Shown here in pieces: positions 12,044-21,092 of a DNA stretch of 64,000 nucleotides. Each line of letters opens with the position of its first letter. Position 1 is the first letter of the stretch. The notes below the pieces were generated by a model. That model saw only the letters and a list, made by a program, of their open reading frames with translations, did no database searches and was not told where the DNA came from. This DNA comes from Limihaloglobus sulfuriphilus. Its GTDB lineage: Bacteria; Planctomycetota; Phycisphaerae; Sedimentisphaerales; Sedimentisphaeraceae. A program made the position numbers and the translations under genes. The stretch lies in contig NZ_CP019646.1 of the NCBI RefSeq assembly GCF_001999965.1, forward strand, positions 3,472,001 through 3,536,000, in the 5' to 3' direction.

Positions 12044-14005
12044 ATGAATCAGCTGAACCTATTTGACTACTCTCTGATCGCGGGCTACTTTGCCGTACTG
12101 GTAGCCGTTGGATTTTATTTTAGAAAAATGGCCTCTGCCAGTCTCGAAGATTATTTTCTCGGCGGGCGAAAACTGCCGTGGTGGACATTAGGTATTTCCG
12201 GAATGGCGGCCTGGCTGGATTTGACCGGAACGATGCTGATAACTTCCTTTTTGTTTCTTCTCGGGCCCAGAGGCTTATTTATCGAGATACGGGGCGGTGT
12301 CGGTCTTGTGCTGGTTTTCATGTTTATTTTTATCGGAAAATGGCACAGGCGATCCGGCTTGATGACCTCCGCGGAGTGGATGGAGTTCCGCTTTGGCGAT
12401 AACTTCTGGGGCAAGTTTGCCAGATTCGCCCAGGTGCTTGCGATGATGCTGTTTGCCGTGGGTATGATGGCGTACGCGATTAAGGGTATAGGCCTGTTTT
12501 TCTCAATGTTTCTTCCGTTCGGCCCGGCGGCATGCGCGGCGATGATGCTGGCGATTACCTGTGTATATACCATCCAGTCCGGTTTTTACGGCTGTGTCGT
12601 TACGGATATATTCCAGGGATTCTGTGTTTTGATCGGTGCGGGTTTTGTTGTTGTTTACGCGATGATCGCAGCATCCGGCGCGGATATTTCCGAGGTTGCC
12701 ATGCGGGCAACCGGCAACGATATGTGGACGGCGGCAATGCCGACGGCCAAGGTGCACATGCCCAGCGGTTACGAGCATTACAGCGCTCTGGGGCTTGTAA
12801 CGATGTTTTTCCTTTTCAGGACGATTTTTCAGGGCATGGGACAGCATGTGGACAACAGATATTTCGGCGCGGCGGGCGACAGAGAGTGCGGCCTGCTGGG
12901 CTTTATGTCGGGCTGGTGCCTTCTGATGCGGTGGCCGCTGATGATGGGTTTTGCGATTTTAGGTCTGTTCATGGTTACTACTGTTTTCCCCGACCAGGCT
13001 GTTGTGCCCGAGGCTACTGATGTTATAAAACAGCATTTTGACGATACGGGCGTTTATGTCGATGAAAAAATATGGCACGAAAAACTGGCGGAGATAACTT
13101 CACGGCCCGGCGATTACGCAGAGCTCACAGCAGAGCTGGAAGATATGCTCGGCGAAAAATGGCAGAGTAAAATTGCCCTGTTGAGTTATCATGGAACAAT
13201 CTTCCCCGAGCGAATTCTGCCTGCGGTACTTTTGGGCATGATACCAATGGGCGTGCGGGGCTTGATTATCGTGGCTCTTATGGCGGCGTCTATGTCAACG
13301 ATCAATACGCTGATAAATAATACATCTACTTTCTTTACACGTGATATTTATCAAAACTTCATCAGAAGCAAGGCAGAAAACAAAGAGCTTATCTATATAA
13401 GCTGGACATTCGGCCTTCTGTTTACCGCTTTCGGTTTTGTCATTGCGTTTTATGCTGAAAATATCAATGACATCTGGAGCTGGATACAGGGCGGCCTTGT
13501 CGGCGGGCTTGTTATCCCGTGGTTCCTGCGTTTGTACTGGTGGAGGTTCAACGGCGGCGGCTTTGCCTTTGGGTTGATAGCCGGTATTATAGGTGCTACG
13601 CTTCAGCGGCTCATTATCCCCGAGATGCAGGAATGGTATCAGTTCTTTTATATCCTGGCGATCGGCTTTGTCGCGTCAGTGGCGGGCACATTCCTGACGA
13701 ACCCGACAGACCGCAGTGTTCTCGAAGTATTCTACAAGAAGACACGGCCGTTCGGTATCTGGGGGCCGCTCAAATCATGCCTTGAACCAGATGTCAGAGA
13801 GGACATGGAAAAAGAGCATAAAAACGATATTATTTCTATCCCGTTCGGCATGGGCTGGCTTGTAAGTATGCTGCTTCTGCCGCTGTATGCAATGATAGGG
13901 CGGTGGGATGCATTTGCGATAACATTTACAGTGTTTGCCGTATCGCTGATTGGGCTGTACCACTTCTGGTACAAACAGCTTCCTCCGCCGGCGAAAAAAG
14001 CATAG
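12044..14005 (+). CDS. Sodium/solute symporter (SSS/SLC5 family), sugar-transport type
   Basis: 653 residues with about 13-14 transmembrane helices. The N-terminus shows the family's EDYFLGGRKLPWWTLGISGMAAW segment (about residues 36-58) and the sodium-site region near GLIIVALMAASMSTINTLINNTSTFFTRDIY (about 406-436). It is longer than the typical 480-550 residues because of a hydrophilic insertion around 325-385 and a C-terminal extension. SSS proteins couple sodium entry to uptake of sugars, amino acids or organic acids. Placement directly after the mannosidase-like gene, but with its own upstream region (12 kb terminator between them), suggests oligosaccharide or monosaccharide uptake; substrate is inference. 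Confidence 0.85.
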   Translation: MNQLNLFDYSLIAGYFAVLVAVGFYFRKMASASLEDYFLGGRKLPWWTLGISGMAAWLDLTGTMLITSFLFLLGPRGLFIEIRGGVGLVLVFMFIFIGKWHRRSGLMTSAEWMEFRFGDNFWGKFARFAQVLAMMLFAVGMMAYAIKGIGLFFSMFLPFGPAACAAMMLAITCVYTIQSGFYGCVVTDIFQGFCVLIGAGFVVVYAMIAASGADISEVAMRATGNDMWTAAMPTAKVHMPSGYEHYSALGLVTMFFLFRTIFQGMGQHVDNRYFGAAGDRECGLLGFMSGWCLLMRWPLMMGFAILGLFMVTTVFPDQAVVPEATDVIKQHFDDTGVYVDEKIWHEKLAEITSRPGDYAELTAELEDMLGEKWQSKIALLSYHGTIFPERILPAVLLGMIPMGVRGLIIVALMAASMSTINTLINNTSTFFTRDIYQNFIRSKAENKELIYISWTFGLLFTAFGFVIAFYAENINDIWSWIQGGLVGGLVIPWFLRLYWWRFNGGGFAFGLIAGIIGATLQRLIIPEMQEWYQFFYILAIGFVASVAGTFLTNPTDRSVLEVFYKKTRPFGIWGPLKSCLEPDVREDMEKEHKNDIISIPFGMGWLVSMLLLPLYAMIGRWDAFAITFTVFAVSLIGLYHFWYKQLPPPAKKA

Positions 14006-14081
14006 CAGGCATTCCGGCGGCAGCGGGTATAAAATTCTAATACAGCTTGACTTGCAGGCTGTGAGCATCTGATGTGCAGTT

Positions 14082-14118
14082 AAGCGGGCTTGATCTTTTA
14101 AGCCCGCTTGAGAGGGGT
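14082..14118 (+). terminator. Intrinsic terminator-like hairpin after the symporter gene
   Basis: AAGCGGGCTT (14082-14091) and AAGCCCGCTT (14100-14109) form a perfect 10-bp stem with an 8-base loop. The following bases (GAGAGGGGTTTT) hold only a short T-run, so termination strength is uncertain, but it cleanly separates the symporter from the phosphate cluster. Confidence 0.65.
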
Positions 14119-14164
14119 TTTCGCATTTCTTGAGAGTCAGCGGGCTCTCTGCGCAAACACAAAT

Positions 14165-14219
14165 CTAAACTAACGCTAACCATTTCCTAATAATAGGCTA
14201 ATATTACTCTAATCATCAA
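14165..14219 (+). promoter_or_regulatory. Pho-box-like array: five CTAA direct repeats at 11-bp spacing
   Basis: CTAA occurs at 14165, 14176, 14187, 14198 and 14209, exactly one DNA-helix turn apart. PhoB/PhoP-family response regulators bind tandem direct repeats spaced 11 bp and overlap or replace the -35 element. A -10-like TAACAT lies at 14224-14229, about where a Pho promoter would put it, predicting a transcript start near 14236. The genes downstream (porin, pstSCAB, phoU) are the classic target set. This also argues that translation of the porin starts at ATG 14272 rather than at the earlier in-frame TTG 14230. The response regulator itself is not in the window. Confidence 0.75.
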
Positions 14220-14271
14220 GGGGTAACATTTGGGCCAAAGCATGAAATTTAAAAAATTTATGGAGAAAAAA

Positions 14272-15621
14272 ATGAGCATGAGAATTTATGGAATTGCAGC
14301 GCTTATTGTGTGTACATTCGGCGCGGCGAACCTGCGGGGCGACGAAATTAGCGAATTAAAACAATTGTTGCTGGAACAAAAAAAACAGATTGAAGTCTTG
14401 ACAACCAGAATAAGCGAGCTTGAAAAAAAGCAGGGCAGTCTGGAAGGCAAGGCGTATGCCCTTGACATTCGGGCCGATGAGCAGGAAGAAAAGGCACTGG
14501 CTCTTGACACCCGTATCGACGAGACCGCCAAAGCCGCGTCTGCATCCGGCGGCGAGATTCCTGTTCCCGAGTCTATAAAATGGGCACAGGCCTTTGACGT
14601 GGGCGGAGATTTCCGGTTTCGGTATGAGAATGTCGATGATGAGGGCAAGTCAGACAAAGACGACAAAAATGCCATACGCGCCAGGTTAAATATAACCGCG
14701 GAGGTAAACGATGAGGTGAAGTTCAAAAGCCGTATCGCCGCGGGCAGTGATGATCCGGTCTCTGCTAACAATACTCTGGGTGATGATTTTGCCAGTGACG
14801 GGGTATGGATCGACAGGGCGTACCTGGATTATAATCCTGTCTGGGCAGACGAATTCAGTCTGTGGGCGGGCAAGTTCGGCACACCGTTTTATGTCCCGGG
14901 CGGAACGCAGGTTATGTGGGACAGCGACCTGAATCCCGAGGGCGGGGCCCTTAAGTATGAGACTAAACTTAGTGATGCCTCAACACTCTTTGCCGGTGTG
15001 GGCGGTTATTGGGTGGAGAAAAATTCCTCCGATGCCGACGTCGGCATGTTCGGCGGCCAGTTAGGGCTTGCGACGGAGTTATTTGACGGCGATAAACTGA
15101 CTTTCGGAGGCGGCTATTATGATTACGGCAATATTCAGGGCTCAGACCTGAACGCTGTTTCCCTCAAAAACGCTGTTTCCCTCAAAGAGAGCTATAACAC
15201 ACTCGATGGCGGCGGCAATTTTGCCTATGACTACAACATAGCCGAGGGTTTCGCCAACTATGACTTTACGCTATTTAACAGGCCAGGCTCTCTGTACGGC
15301 ACGTACCTTGTAAATACCGCAAGCGGAGTCGAAGAAGACACTGCCTGGGCAATGGGTGTAAAGACCGGCAAGGTTACTCCAAAATTCGGCAGCTGGCAGC
15401 TGGGCTACGAGTACCGCGATACAGACAAAGACGCCGTTGTGTCAGCCTTTGCAGAGTCTGACTTTGCCGGCGGCAAGACTGACAGCCGCGGTCATAAGGT
15501 GAGCCTTAAGTACGGTATATCAAAGAATTTCAGCGGTGCCGTCTCGCTGTTTCAAAACGAATACGGCATCAATGACACAGACTATAACAGAATCCAGCTG
15601 GATTTTATCGGAAAATTTTAA
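14272..15621 (+). CDS. Phosphate-cluster outer-membrane porin with N-terminal coiled coil
   Basis: 449 residues from ATG 14272 (RBS GGAG 9 bp upstream). Signal peptide MSMRIYGIAALIVCTFGAANLRG; residues ~24-85 form a coiled coil (ISELKQLLLEQKKQIEVLTTRISELEKKQ) that may anchor to the cell wall or envelope; the rest is a beta-barrel with alternating strands (FRFRYENVDD, AYLDYNPVWADEFSLWAGKFG) ending in a C-terminal aromatic strand, IQLDFIGKF, with terminal Phe as outer-membrane proteins usually have. This matches the "putative porin"/OprP-like group. Lying directly downstream of the Pho-box array and upstream of pstS, it most likely passes phosphate into the periplasm. A short repeated stretch (AVSLKNAVSLKES) appears around residue 293. 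Confidence 0.8.
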   Translation: MSMRIYGIAALIVCTFGAANLRGDEISELKQLLLEQKKQIEVLTTRISELEKKQGSLEGKAYALDIRADEQEEKALALDTRIDETAKAASASGGEIPVPESIKWAQAFDVGGDFRFRYENVDDEGKSDKDDKNAIRARLNITAEVNDEVKFKSRIAAGSDDPVSANNTLGDDFASDGVWIDRAYLDYNPVWADEFSLWAGKFGTPFYVPGGTQVMWDSDLNPEGGALKYETKLSDASTLFAGVGGYWVEKNSSDADVGMFGGQLGLATELFDGDKLTFGGGYYDYGNIQGSDLNAVSLKNAVSLKESYNTLDGGGNFAYDYNIAEGFANYDFTLFNRPGSLYGTYLVNTASGVEEDTAWAMGVKTGKVTPKFGSWQLGYEYRDTDKDAVVSAFAESDFAGGKTDSRGHKVSLKYGISKNFSGAVSLFQNEYGINDTDYNRIQLDFIGKF

Positions 15622-15691: not shown

Positions 15692-16513
15692 ATGAGAAAA
15701 ACCAGATTACTAACAATTATCTCTCTTTTGCTGACGGCGGCTCTGTTCGCGGCGGATAAGCAGCTGCACATTGACGGCTCTACCACTGTTGGGCCTATAG
15801 GCGACGCATTCGCGGAAGTCTTCAAGCATCTCGAACCGGAACTTGATATAACAGTTAAGAAAACCGGCAGCGGTGACGGCGCCGCGGCACTGGTTGACGG
15901 ACGCTGTGATGTAGCCATGATGAGCCGGTTTATGAAGGTTGAGGAATTTGCCCAGGCGGTTGAGAACTCAGTTATGCCGGTCGCTCATGTGGTGGCTATG
16001 GATGGTGTCTGCATCGTTGTTCACCCGTCAAATCCGGTTAGCGAGCTGACGCTTGCACAGATTCGGGCTATCTACAAGGGTGAGATTAAAAACTGGAAAG
16101 AGCTTGGCGGCGTTGACGCACAGATAGTTCCGGTAAGCCGCGATACTTCCTCCGGCACATACGAAACGTTTCACGGAATCGTCATGAAAAAAGAGAAAAT
16201 GGCTGACATGGTCGAATATGTCAATTCAAACCCGCAGGCTCACTCACGTGTTAAAAGTACAGTAGGCGCAATAGCTTATGTCGGGCTTGGTTTTGTTGAC
16301 AGCAATGTCAAGTCCGTCTCAGTCAATGGTATAAAGCCAAACCGCAAGACCATTGCAAGCGGCGTGTATCCGGTAAGCCGGCCGCTGTATCTCTTTACGG
16401 ACGGCTACCCCGAGCTCGGTTCCGTAACTCACAGGTTCTGCACCTTCTACCTTACCGAAGAAGGGCAGGAAATAATCGAGACCAAGGGCTTTGTGCCGCT
16501 GACTGACTACTAA
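15692..16513 (+). CDS. pstS: Periplasmic phosphate-binding protein PstS
   Basis: 273 residues with a signal peptide (MRKTRLLTIISLLLTAALFAA). The mature protein has the PstS phosphate-site segments: LHIDGSTTVGPI near the N-terminus, KKTGSGDGAAAL, and SRDTSSGTYETF around residues 149-160. It delivers orthophosphate to the PstCA permease. Spacing to pstC is 41 bp; start ATG 15692 has GAAAGG upstream. Size and domain are ordinary for the short SphX/PstS class found outside Enterobacteria. Expected to be induced by phosphate limitation from the array at 14165. Confidence 0.93.
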   Translation: MRKTRLLTIISLLLTAALFAADKQLHIDGSTTVGPIGDAFAEVFKHLEPELDITVKKTGSGDGAAALVDGRCDVAMMSRFMKVEEFAQAVENSVMPVAHVVAMDGVCIVVHPSNPVSELTLAQIRAIYKGEIKNWKELGGVDAQIVPVSRDTSSGTYETFHGIVMKKEKMADMVEYVNSNPQAHSRVKSTVGAIAYVGLGFVDSNVKSVSVNGIKPNRKTIASGVYPVSRPLYLFTDGYPELGSVTHRFCTFYLTEEGQEIIETKGFVPLTDY

Positions 16514-16554: not shown

Positions 16555-17535
16555 ATGCAAGGCAAAGTAATCAAAAATAAGTATTCAGAGAGAGAAGCGG
16601 CGGATTTTACCCGTCCGCTTCTTCTCACACCCGCAGAGGACATGAAGGGTTTTCTCACGGAGAAAATCTCGAGGGCCTCGCTTTTTACCGTAACCTGTGT
16701 CTCGGTGCTTGCGGTTCTGCTTATACTTATCTTCGTATTGAAGGAGGGGCTCGTCTTTCTCAAGTCTGATGAGGCTAAGAGATTTCTAACATCTACCGAA
16801 TGGACTCCGACACACGAGGCCAATCCGGTTTACGGTGCTCTTTCCCTTATTGTCGGTTCTGTTTATGTTACAGTAACGTCCATGCTTATAGCCGCTCCAG
16901 TCGGTGTTCTCGCGGCGGTTTACTTAAGCGACATTGCCCCGTTTAAACTTCGCCAGGTTGCAAAACCTGTGATAGAGCTTCTGGCGGCGATTCCCTCGGT
17001 TGCGTACGGTTTTTTTGCCGTGCTGGTACTGGCGCCGCTGCTTCAGAATAAATTCGGCATGGTTACCGGCACCAACGCGCTTAATGCCTCGCTGATACTG
17101 GCTGTAATGGCATTGCCGACAATCATCAGCATCACCGAGGATTCTCTCTCGGCTATACGCCGCGAGATACGCGAGGCATCTTATGCCCTGGGCTCGACGA
17201 GGGCCGAGACCATGATTAAGATCGTAATTCCCGCCGCCCACAGCGGTATTATCGCGGCGGTTATTCTTGGAACCATGCGGGCGATAGGCGAGACGATGGT
17301 TGTCTGGATGGCCTCGGGCAACGCCACACAGATTCCCTCGCCATGGTGGGATATTACCAGCTCCGTGCGTACAATGACAGCGACAATAGCCGGAGAGATG
17401 GGCGAGGCGGTAAAAGGCTCGCTGCATTACCAGTCATTGTTCGCGGTCGGCGGGGTGCTTCTGGTTTCTACATTTGTGATGAACCTCGCCAGTGAGTATT
17501 TCATGAGCAGAGTTAGAAAGGGGGGCAAGGGCTGA
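16555..17535 (+). CDS. pstC: Phosphate ABC transporter permease PstC
   Basis: 326 residues with six transmembrane helices, a basic ~40-residue cytoplasmic N-terminus and a BPD-type permease core. The EAA coupling loop reads REASYALGSTRAETMIKIVIPAAHSG (about 217-242 by position), the surface that contacts PstB. The segment YGALSLIVGSVYVT and ELLAAIPSVAYGFFA are typical of PstC. One base separates its stop from pstA. Confidence 0.93.
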   Translation: MQGKVIKNKYSEREAADFTRPLLLTPAEDMKGFLTEKISRASLFTVTCVSVLAVLLILIFVLKEGLVFLKSDEAKRFLTSTEWTPTHEANPVYGALSLIVGSVYVTVTSMLIAAPVGVLAAVYLSDIAPFKLRQVAKPVIELLAAIPSVAYGFFAVLVLAPLLQNKFGMVTGTNALNASLILAVMALPTIISITEDSLSAIRREIREASYALGSTRAETMIKIVIPAAHSGIIAAVILGTMRAIGETMVVWMASGNATQIPSPWWDITSSVRTMTATIAGEMGEAVKGSLHYQSLFAVGGVLLVSTFVMNLASEYFMSRVRKGGKG

Positions 17536-17536
17536 T

Positions 17537-19162
17537 ATGAGAAATCGCTTGAGAATAATTCTAAATCATCTTTTTACGGTCTTCTCCGGTGCATCTGTAG
17601 CTGTTCTTGTTCTTGTACTTGTTGTGGTGCTCGGACCGATGCTCTCAAAGGGAGTTACCGCGGTATTTTTCCGCTCAACAGTTGAGTTTGAACGCCTTCA
17701 GTTTGAGATGAACAACAGGGGCGATAAGCAGCAGATAGAAAACAGCCTCGCCGAGTATCATGAGCATACAGGGCGTATCTACGAGATATACGACGAGTTT
17801 TGCCTGGGACTTAATGTCTCCAGGCAGGTTTCTCAGGTACGCTCAATCGCCAGAGACTACACGCGGCAGCTGAGGTATGTGGATACGCCCGATGAGGAAT
17901 ACGACAGGCTCAAAGACCTTTCAAGAGATATAAGAGACCAGTTTTCAGAGGCTCTCGAATCTCAGGACAGCGAATTTGCCCTTAAAGAGATTGACAAAAT
18001 ACTCAACATGCCGCAGCGCAGCGAGTTTAAAGGGACTGAATTTGAAAAGGTATTCAAGATGGCAAAAACCTACCGCGATGTCGCCGCCGCTATGGACCTT
18101 GACAAAAGGGACGTTTACAGCGAAGACCTCGCGGCAATAGGTGATTTGCTCAGTAAACTATTCGGGCCAAGGCCCTCCGCGGACAAGCCCCCGCTGGCGA
18201 TGAATCAGTACGGAGCCACACGCTGGGACAGGGTGAAAAAGCTCTCAGATGAGCTGCTGTGGAAAACCCAGTGGCAGCAGCAGGGTGAGGGTATGCCGCT
18301 TAAGGAAGTTCGCCTCTCAAGAGCACAGATGTACTCTGAGACACCAATGAAATCTTTTTTTGATATTCTGGAAAATGATCTTGAGAAAATTTTCAGGCCG
18401 CGTATGAAGATTTACTGGCAGTATCTGATAGATGACAGCACGCCCGGCTATTTTTTCGGGGGTATCGGGCCAGAGATCATCGGCACGCTTGTACTTACGC
18501 TGCTGGCGATGCTTTTTGCCATACCGCCCGGAATAATATCAGCGGTTTACCTTGTAGAGTATGCCGGCGATACCCGGACAGTGCGGCTGATAAGAATCTG
18601 TATCAATACGCTTGCCGGCGTGCCCAGTATAGTTTTTGGGCTTTTTGGCATGGCGTTTTTTGTTCTGTTCCTGCTGCCGATGTTTAAGTCAAACGCCTCG
18701 GCGTGTATCCTGACAGCCTCATTGACTTTGTCTGTTATGATACTGCCTATAATCATCAGAGCCTCCGAAGAGGCGATCAGGTCTGTGCCGGTCAGCTACA
18801 AACAGGCCGCTCTTGCTCTGGGGGCGGGCGAGCTGAGAACCGTTTTGACGGTTACACTGCCGGCGGCTATGCCGGGAATCCTGACGGGCATAATACTTAG
18901 CCTGAGCCGTGCAGCCGGCGAGACTGCACCGATTCTTTTTACAGGTGCGGTAGCGCTTGGCCCGATAGCCAAATCACTTTTTGACCCGACAAGAACACTC
19001 TCTTACGGAAGTTATAATATCGCGGTTTCTGACAGGATTTCCATGCTGGTTCCGCACAACCAGTACGGGATGGTATCTGCGCTTATTATTCTTGTGCTGG
19101 TTCTCAATCTGGCGGCTATAATAATCCGATCGAGAATTTCAAAAAGGCTTCACGCCTCCTGA
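17537..19162 (+). CDS. pstA: Phosphate ABC transporter permease PstA with a large extracytoplasmic insertion
   Basis: 541 residues, nearly twice the usual ~290. Helix 1 (about 12-35) is followed by ~270 residues of hydrophilic, mostly helical sequence rich in charged heptads (about 45-305; for example EYDRLKDLSRDIRDQFSEAL), then the canonical permease core from about residue 310: GIGPEIIGTLVLTLLAM, ISAVYLVEYAG, NTLAGVPSIVFGLFG and the EAA loop SYKQAALALGAGELRTVLTVTLPAAMPG. The insertion lies between helix 1 and helix 2, so it should face the periplasm, where PstS docks. It has no recognised domain. The C-terminal core is intact, so phosphate transport is expected to work. Confidence 0.9.
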   Translation: MRNRLRIILNHLFTVFSGASVAVLVLVLVVVLGPMLSKGVTAVFFRSTVEFERLQFEMNNRGDKQQIENSLAEYHEHTGRIYEIYDEFCLGLNVSRQVSQVRSIARDYTRQLRYVDTPDEEYDRLKDLSRDIRDQFSEALESQDSEFALKEIDKILNMPQRSEFKGTEFEKVFKMAKTYRDVAAAMDLDKRDVYSEDLAAIGDLLSKLFGPRPSADKPPLAMNQYGATRWDRVKKLSDELLWKTQWQQQGEGMPLKEVRLSRAQMYSETPMKSFFDILENDLEKIFRPRMKIYWQYLIDDSTPGYFFGGIGPEIIGTLVLTLLAMLFAIPPGIISAVYLVEYAGDTRTVRLIRICINTLAGVPSIVFGLFGMAFFVLFLLPMFKSNASACILTASLTLSVMILPIIIRASEEAIRSVPVSYKQAALALGAGELRTVLTVTLPAAMPGILTGIILSLSRAAGETAPILFTGAVALGPIAKSLFDPTRTLSYGSYNIAVSDRISMLVPHNQYGMVSALIILVLVLNLAAIIIRSRISKRLHAS

Positions 19163-19180: not shown

Positions 19181-20020
19181 ATGAATAAGACCATAACACT
19201 TGATAAATCGTTGACGAACAAAACAAATTCAGCCCCGGATTCAGACAGCAAAGCTCACCAGCAATCAGCAGCGCTGATAAAGGCGGAGAATTTCAGTTTT
19301 TTCTACGGCAGCAAGGCCGGCGTCAAAGATGTTACAATAGATATTTACCAGGGCAAGGTGACCGCCATTATCGGCCCCAGCGGCTGCGGCAAGAGTACCT
19401 TTCTAAGAAGTATTAACCGTATGAATGATTTGATTCCCAACACCAGGACGGAAGGCGTGCTGAGCGTAAACGGGAATAATATTTATGATAAACGGGTAAA
19501 TCTTGTAAATCTGCGCCAGCAGGTCGGGATGGTTTTTCAGCGGCCAAACCCTTTTGCCAAGAGTATCTATGACAATATCGCCTTCGGCCCGCGGCTTCAG
19601 GGAATAAGCAATTCTATTGAGCTTGACGAGATTGTCGAGTCGTGCCTCCGCGGCGCTGCGATCTGGGACGAGGTAAAGGACGACCTGAAAAAGTCGGCTC
19701 TTGCCCTTTCCGGCGGCCAGCAGCAGAGGCTCTGTATCGCCAGGACACTGGCTACAAAGCCGCGTGTTGTGCTGATGGACGAGCCATGCTCGGCTCTTGA
19801 CCCGGTTGCAACGGCGAGGATTGAGGACCTGATCACCGAGCTCAAGGAAAAATACACCATCGTTATCGTTACCCACAACATGCAGCAGGCAGCGCGTGTC
19901 AGTGAATACACGGCGTTTTTCTGTATGGGTGACCTGGTTGAATACGGATTGACCGACCAGCTCTTTACAAATCCGGTTCAAAAAAGCACAGAAGATTATA
20001 TTACAGGGAGATTCGGCTAA
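19181..20020 (+). CDS. pstB: Phosphate ABC transporter ATPase PstB
   Basis: 279 residues. Walker [10 protein letters not shown] (about 65-73), Q-loop [11 protein letters not shown], signature LSGGQQQR (about 176-183), Walker [14 protein letters not shown] and the switch histidine in [12 protein letters not shown] are all present. The [12 protein letters not shown] segment is characteristic of PstB among ABC ATPases. A ~28-residue basic and serine-rich N-terminal extension precedes the domain. Its stop overlaps the start of the next ORF by one base (TAATG). Confidence 0.95.
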
Positions 20021-20364
20021 TGAAATTATCCGGCAAGATATGTAAAATCAGAACAGTAAAAAATTACCCCCAGGCGCACAATCATCTATTAGTCGGGCGT
20101 ATTGAAGAATCTGATACGGCGGCAGTAATGATTTACGGAAAGACTTATCACTACAAAAGAAACATTGTTTCTATAAGAGACGTAAAGGTCGGCAGTCTTG
20201 GCCTTCGGGTGCTGCCCTGGGCAAGGATTGAGATAATGAACATTATACCGCCTGAGTTTGATTATGAAAACGCCGAGCTGGGCCTCAGCGGCGACGGGGA
20301 AGTGACGTTAAAATCGGCAGGCGGAGAGATTTCTGTTTTCTCGAGCAAAGATTCGAGTTTGTGA
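20020..20364 (+). CDS. Unrecognised 114-residue protein inside the pst operon
   Basis: I do not recognise this family. It is a small, basic-then-acidic, beta-rich protein without signal peptide or membrane segment. The first ~80 residues alternate hydrophobic and polar positions (LLVGRIEESDTAAVMIYGK, then IVSIRDVKVGSLGLRV) as in small beta-barrels of the SH3/LSm kind; the last ~30 residues are acidic and Ser/Gly-rich. Its ATG shares one base with the pstB stop codon, and phoU follows 65 bp later, so it is translated with the phosphate transporter. The position between pstB and phoU suggests a role in coupling or sensing phosphate uptake, but nothing in the sequence proves it. Confidence 0.75.
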   Translation: MKLSGKICKIRTVKNYPQAHNHLLVGRIEESDTAAVMIYGKTYHYKRNIVSIRDVKVGSLGLRVLPWARIEIMNIIPPEFDYENAELGLSGDGEVTLKSAGGEISVFSSKDSSL

Positions 20365-20429: not shown

Positions 20430-21092
20430 ATGTCGATACATTTAAACAGAGAGCTGGATAAGCTCAAGAGAAGAATATTGTTTCTCGGCAGCAAAGTAGA
20501 AGAAAATCTTAATGCCTCGCTTGAGGCACTCAAAGAGAAGAATAGCCGGATGGCTGAGCTCATTGAAGATAAAGACTTTGAAATAGATGAGCTTGAGATC
20601 GAGATAGAAGAAGAATGTCTCAAGATTCTCGCCCTTCACCAGCCGGTCGCAGTTGATCTGCGTTTTATTGTTTCCGTTCTCAAAATAAACAATGACCTTG
20701 AGCGTATTGGAGACCTCGCGGTCAAGATCGCCAAACGGGCCAAAAGAATTGTCAGTTTCCAGGCAATAGCTGACATATATCCAATCGATGAAATGGCCGC
20801 CGAGGTTATAAAGATGCTGCGTAATTCACTCGATGCCCTTATAAACCATGACAGCGGGCTTGCCGCCAGCGTCCTGGCGGCTGACAACAAGGTGGACAGC
20901 TTTAACAAGGATATCGTCCAGCGAAGCAAGCAGCAGTACGCGGATAAATCATTTGATATCGAGACCTTTGTCGGAGTGATCGATGTCTCGAGAGGCTTCG
21001 AGAGGATCGCCGACCATACAACAAATATCGCCGAAGATATTATCTATATGGTTGAGGGAAAAATAGTAAGGCATGGCAGGGCAGATACTTAA
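20430..21092 (+). CDS. phoU: Phosphate signalling regulator PhoU
   Basis: 220 residues, the usual length, made of two three-helix bundles. The metal-binding signature E/DxxxD lies in each repeat: DLERIGDLAVKIAKR (about 90-104) and GFERIADHTTNIAEDIIYM (about 189-207). PhoU links the Pst transporter to the PhoR sensor kinase and lowers Pho regulon expression when phosphate is ample. RBS AGAGGAG precedes ATG 20430. A weak hairpin with a short T-run (around 21126-21144) may end the operon. Confidence 0.95.
   Translation: MSIHLNRELDKLKRRILFLGSKVEENLNASLEALKEKNSRMAELIEDKDFEIDELEIEIEEECLKILALHQPVAVDLRFIVSVLKINNDLERIGDLAVKIAKRAKRIVSFQAIADIYPIDEMAAEVIKMLRNSLDALINHDSGLAASVLAADNKVDSFNKDIVQRSKQQYADKSFDIETFVGVIDVSRGFERIADHTTNIAEDIIYMVEGKIVRHGRADT

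Follow-up and report, generated by a model that had tools for sequence, protein, structure and literature searches.

An 11-bp YTAAYA repeat array as a putative Pho box upstream of the porin-pst genes of Limihaloglobus sulfuriphilus

Upstream of a porin gene and the pst genes for phosphate uptake, the window (the whole 64,000-nucleotide stretch of Limihaloglobus sulfuriphilus DNA analysed here) carries five CTAA motifs in exact 11-bp steps. We regard this array, with a probability of about 0.9, as a putative activator site (Pho box) within a phosphate-starvation promoter of the porin-pst genes. Judged by its sequence features, it is very probably a known kind of switch, here found in the Sedimentisphaerales (Phycisphaerae, Planctomycetota). 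A partial literature search returned no earlier description of a Pho box in Planctomycetota. PhoB goes unmentioned in a genomic survey of Phycisphaerae, according to which L. sulfuriphilus is one of three Sedimentisphaeraceae isolates (PMC11266412).

The array and its predicted promoter

On the forward strand of the window, CTAA occurs at positions 14165, 14176, 14187, 14198 and 14209, in the perfect 11-bp phase that the first-pass annotation had described. The corresponding repeat units are CTAAACTAACG (unit 1, 14165-14175), CTAACCATTTC (unit 2, 14176-14186), CTAATAATAGG (unit 3, 14187-14197), CTAATATTACT (unit 4, 14198-14208) and the promoter-proximal CTAATCATCAA (unit 5, 14209-14219). Unit 1 is recognized by its sequence and phase, while units 2 to 5 are also covered by the best match of a matrix described below (14176-14229), which opens with unit 2. 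Upstream, the phase is kept by a degenerate unit, CAAACACAAAT (14154-14164, forward strand), whose CAAAC preserves three of the four core letters; unit 1 additionally contains an out-of-phase CTAA at 14170. A Pho box consists of two 11-nt direct repeat units, with a consensus that depends on the species (PMC4415409), and the array thus offers more than the required two direct repeats, namely five, spaced by exactly 11 bp.

The forward strand of the window holds 100 copies of CTAA. Five pairs of these lie 11 bp apart, four of them from the array, while other distances between 5 and 30 bp occur at most twice, except for the double step of 22 bp, which occurs three times. The triple CTAA-N7-CTAA-N7-CTAA matches three times in the window, always within the array (14165-14209), and the independent expectation for a five-unit run is about 1e-9 per 64 kb. 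The DNA around the array is intergenic and A+T-rich, a setting in which a chance or functionless simple tandem repeat might arise; we nevertheless consider such an origin practically negligible. The phased triple is absent from 100 dinucleotide shuffles of the window, its reversed control pattern has no match in the whole genome, and the array is conserved before orthologous genes. Furthermore, the spacer letters vary from unit to unit, so that the array represents a series of phased short sites and not a copied repeat.

Directly after the array, and as claimed in the first-pass annotation, follows a -10-like box, TAACAT (14224-14229, forward strand), which begins 15 bp downstream of the first base of unit 5 and places the predicted RNA start at approximately 14236. 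Within 13990-14300, we found no sigma70-type -35/-10 pair on the forward strand, as expected of an activator-dependent promoter. Pho regulators can repress some genes; for repression at this operon, the location of the site is the only clue. Still, it is hardly plausible that a PhoB site at this position acts by repression or mere tuning. With its end 9 bp upstream of the -10 box and no -35 box present, the array comes close to the activator layout of E. coli, where the Pho box is located 10 bp upstream of the -10 box (PMC1906773), and high-affinity uptake genes are normally induced. We infer that the array promoter depends on phosphate and is activated rather than repressed.

The spacing to the -10 box recurs in other genomes. 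When 86 arrays were aligned on their last unit, they yielded the form YTAAYA-N5 in about four copies, and a -10 box emerged at positions 15-20 without being selected for, as the only criterion applied downstream of the units was a gene within 250 bp. Among 84 arrays from other genomes, 41 have TANNNT at offset 15, counted from the first base of the last unit, compared to an average of about 2 of 84 at other offsets; the TAACAT of the window sits at exactly this offset. Relatives' arrays thus independently show a -10 box where the window would place it. The half-site itself, originally given as CTAA, is better described as YTAAYA-N5, usually in four copies.

The first gene of the predicted transcript is the porin gene (14272-15621; PF16930 Porin_5, Pfam 148.8 bits). 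A ribosome-binding site, GGAG (14262-14265, forward strand), lies six bases before its ATG at 14272. Should the RNA start near 14236, an alternative ATG at 14242 would be preceded by a leader of just a few bases. The proposal that the array fixes the porin start at 14272 is therefore only partly upheld: this start is favored by the GGAG motif and the predicted RNA start, but the array alone is insufficient to define it.

The porin gene is followed on the same strand by pstS (15692-16513; TIGR02136, 252.1 bits, above the cut-off), a pstC-like permease gene (16555-17535; assigned by PF00528 and position), a pstA-like permease gene (17537-19162; PF00528 at residues 332-538), pstB (19181-20020; TIGR00972, 401 bits, above the cut-off) and phoU (20430-21092; TIGR02135, 195.9 bits, above the cut-off). 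The PstA-like permease has a long N-terminal extension of approximately 330 residues preceding the permease domain, and a similar extension is seen in relatives from other phyla. Between pstB and phoU lies a small gene for a protein of 114 aa (20020-20364, forward strand), which has no Pfam or NCBIfam match and is conserved in 16 other fetched pst loci with 36-51% identity; it is possibly a lineage-specific part of phosphate uptake or signalling.

On its other side, the array is preceded by a sodium:solute symporter gene that ends at 14005. After this gene, the forward strand contains an inverted repeat, AAGCGGGCTT-GATCTTTT-AAGCCCGCTT (14081-14108), which possibly marks the end of the symporter transcript; no T run follows it directly, and a terminator scan reported none there.

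A second array, the PhoB-like regulator and relatives

Across the whole genome (3,868,357 bases), the exact CTAA triple is found at two sites only, the window array and G000:C1:642827. The genome scan that had been suggested for this pattern hence leads to phosphate genes in both cases, the pst cluster and a phoB-like gene. The second site, TTAACATTTAA CTAACGATTTA CTAATAAAAAA CTAACACTAAA, ends 36 bp before a response-regulator gene. The window array is located at genome position 3486165, 2.84 Mb from the second one along the record; on a circular contig, the path in the opposite direction would measure about 1.02 Mb. With at least approximately 1 Mb between them, the two loci do not share the array because of neighborhood. 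The promoter of the second site departs from the 15-bp offset: its TATAAT begins 25 bp after the first base of the last clear unit, as though an additional, degenerate unit had been placed in between.

For the product of the response-regulator gene (G000:C1:642889-643593; L001:1563-2270, forward strand), PhoB is the best NCBIfam model (TIGR02154, equivalog), but its score stays below the curated cut-off (245.5 versus 296.2 bits), which is why we refer to it as PhoB-like. It comprises a receiver (Response_reg, PF00072) and a Trans_reg_C domain (PF00486), and the following, overlapping gene encodes a PhoR-like kinase with HAMP-PAS-HisKA-HATPase architecture. In the functional sense, the protein accordingly has what characterizes a PhoB: both domains, and a PhoR-like kinase beside it. 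Its recognition helix reads DVMIVGLRKKL, while PhoB-like proteins in most of the order have DVQIVGLRKKL or a near variant. The M thus replaces a Q found in nearly all relatives, and the boxes of this genome are rich in CTAAT units; the two features possibly co-vary.

In the order, 22 of 30 phoB-like loci carry an upstream 11-bp YTAAY array (p ≤ 0.02 in comparison with simulated sequences of matched dinucleotide composition); the remaining loci, about 8 of 30, lack one, and some of these represent more distant genes or contig ends. At the pst loci of relatives, arrays precede the porin gene, pstS and in some cases pstC; one genome additionally has an array before a Na/Pi cotransporter gene. The first-pass annotation had named absence from orthologous clusters as the outcome that would speak against it; instead, Sedimentisphaerales relatives have the array at phoB, porin and pstS. 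Together with the porin-pst and phoB sites of L. sulfuriphilus, it hence stands before several phosphate-starvation genes. Likewise, a search for three exact YTAAY units in 59 genomes (194 Mb) returned 96 distinct arrays, of which 45 are located in the 4.5 kb that precede a phoB-like or pst gene on the same strand, a space that makes up about 0.1% of the sequence. Another 40 of the 96 lie away from phoB or pst genes, and some of these are probably chance occurrences.

These observations also bear on the reading that a different regulator of the OmpR/PhoB family binds the array in response to another stress, with the phosphate genes being only some of its targets. Members of this family commonly bind direct repeats, and at E 0.001 or better, the PhoB-like protein has eight matches in the genome. 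However, the sole other exact triple precedes the phoB-like gene, as expected of self-regulation, and the array is associated with phoB and pst genes throughout the order; we thus judge another regulator to be very unlikely and retain the PhoB-like protein as the predicted activator.

The window array also stands out when it is scored by a model built elsewhere. We trained a 54-position matrix on 84 arrays of other genomes, excluding this one, and scanned 442,000 positions of the L. sulfuriphilus genome, i.e. the window and further fetched stretches. The window site (14176-14229) ranks first with 37.4 bits and the phoB site second with 33.0 bits. The matrix owes nothing to this genome, though it does depend on the YTAAY pattern by which the training arrays were chosen. 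The best score on reversed sequence was 21.1 bits.

Further candidate targets

The third matrix site, at 1206315 on the minus strand, reaches 27 bits and is joined by two weaker sites of 23 bits. These sites head a cluster on the minus strand (G000:C1:1190000-1208500) that encodes two secreted proteins, a TonB-dependent receptor and a DUF3450 protein, as well as exbB-, exbD- and tonB-like genes, which we assigned by gene order and likeness to an operon of relatives in which a single exbB-like protein was tested. In three relatives (G002, G004 and G026), an array of 25 to 33 bits is found just upstream of this DUF3450 operon, and in G002, Pfam confirms both DUF3450 and ExbB. We predict from these sites that the TonB/DUF3450 cluster is a further member of the Pho-box regulon. 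A broader reading, which we put forward tentatively and consider rather less than even odds, is that the array runs both the porin-pst genes and this cluster as an energized outer-membrane uptake system (TonB-dependent receptor, DUF3450, ExbB-, ExbD- and TonB-like genes), so that in these planctomycetes phosphate starvation would induce TonB-driven import of a phosphorus compound through a PhoB-like protein with a reworked recognition helix.

A weak array of 25 bits on the minus strand at 1909517, whose -10 offset is occupied by TAAGAT, is located 291 bp before a gene for a PEP-CTERM protein, which is followed by an alkaline phosphatase gene; this locus is likewise a predicted regulon member. 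A convincing array is missing from two alkaline phosphatase genes of this genome and from its Na/Pi cotransporter gene: the alkaline phosphatase gene at 1448066 lacks one (p 0.47), and the cotransporter gene at 400419 has a marginal match only (p 0.04). A PHO4-type transporter was not found in this genome.

Looser patterns carry little information. A genome scan that allowed one mismatch returned 35 matches compared to 36 for the control, and given this lack of excess it is unable to list targets. CTAA-N7-CTAA pairs alone gave no signal either, with 35 matches versus 177 for the reversed control.

Comparison with known Pho boxes and proposed mechanism

The PhoP box of Bacillus subtilis is TTAACA with 11-bp spacing. 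The spacing is equal here, and the (C/T)TAACA of the relatives includes this very motif; in L. sulfuriphilus, by contrast, T is frequent at position 5, the letter at position 6 is variable, and the array is found in a Gram-negative setting, with a porin and pst genes. The cyanobacterial SphR Pho box, CTTAACCT, is built of 8-bp units with a 3-bp linker in at least three repeats (PMC1906773). With it, the array shares 11-bp direct repeats in at least three copies, a TTAAC-type core and a position ahead of phosphate-uptake genes. It differs in that the core in the window and the order is (C/T)TAAYA, usually in four copies and with frequent CTAAT in this genome, and in that the regulator is a planctomycete PhoB-like protein.

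In the E. coli PhoB box, the 11 nt comprise seven conserved positions, CTGTCAT, and four less conserved ones (PMC4415409). As in E. coli, the 11-nt direct repeats here lie just upstream of the -10 box and take the place of a -35 box, and the regulator has receiver and winged-helix domains and an adjoining PhoR kinase. Unlike in E. coli, the core is YTAAYA and not CTGTCAT, with AA instead of GT at core positions 3-4. The recognition helices differ as well (DVHIRRLRKAL in E. coli, DVQIVGLRKKL in most of the order), and the loss of two arginines would fit a box without the GT of CTGTCAT. A possible difference from E. coli in the spacing to the -10 box was considered and dropped, as CTGTCAT and YTAACA cannot be aligned in a definite register. 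The earlier view that the half-site differs from both known types consequently holds for CTGTCAT of E. coli, while TTAACA of B. subtilis, like the cyanobacterial CTTAACCT, is similar.

Nor does the form appear to be private to the lineage. Arrays of the same form often stand ahead of the pst genes of Kiritimatiellae, Lentisphaerae, an Akkermansia, a Neomarinimicrobiota and an Aminicenantes genome, whereas those of green sulfur bacteria mostly lack them. With the reversed and complementary strands of these regions as the only background for scoring, this is suggestive of an array form that extends beyond Planctomycetota. The idea of a Pho box that defines this lineage can thus be kept with respect to the association with phosphate genes, but not with respect to exclusivity, as similar arrays precede pst genes in other phyla.

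We propose the following mechanism. At low phosphate, the PhoR-like kinase would phosphorylate the PhoB-like regulator encoded beside it (G000:C1:642889), dimers of which would bind the 11-bp YTAAYA-N5 direct repeats head to tail on one face of the DNA. Bound PhoB would then recruit RNA polymerase to the -10 box at 14224-14229, in place of the missing -35 box. RNA starting at about 14236 would cover the porin gene and probably also pstSCAB and phoU, resulting in increased phosphate uptake. The phoB-like gene, being under the same kind of array, is probably self-activating.

Taken as proposed, the array provides Sedimentisphaerales with a working Pho-box definition, and the matrix could be used to predict the phosphate regulon in these poorly studied bacteria. 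The occurrence of similar arrays ahead of pst genes in several other phyla suggests that it is YTAACA, and not the CTGTCAT of E. coli, that is widespread. Finally, the sites at the TonB uptake cluster suggest a testable link between this cluster and phosphate starvation.
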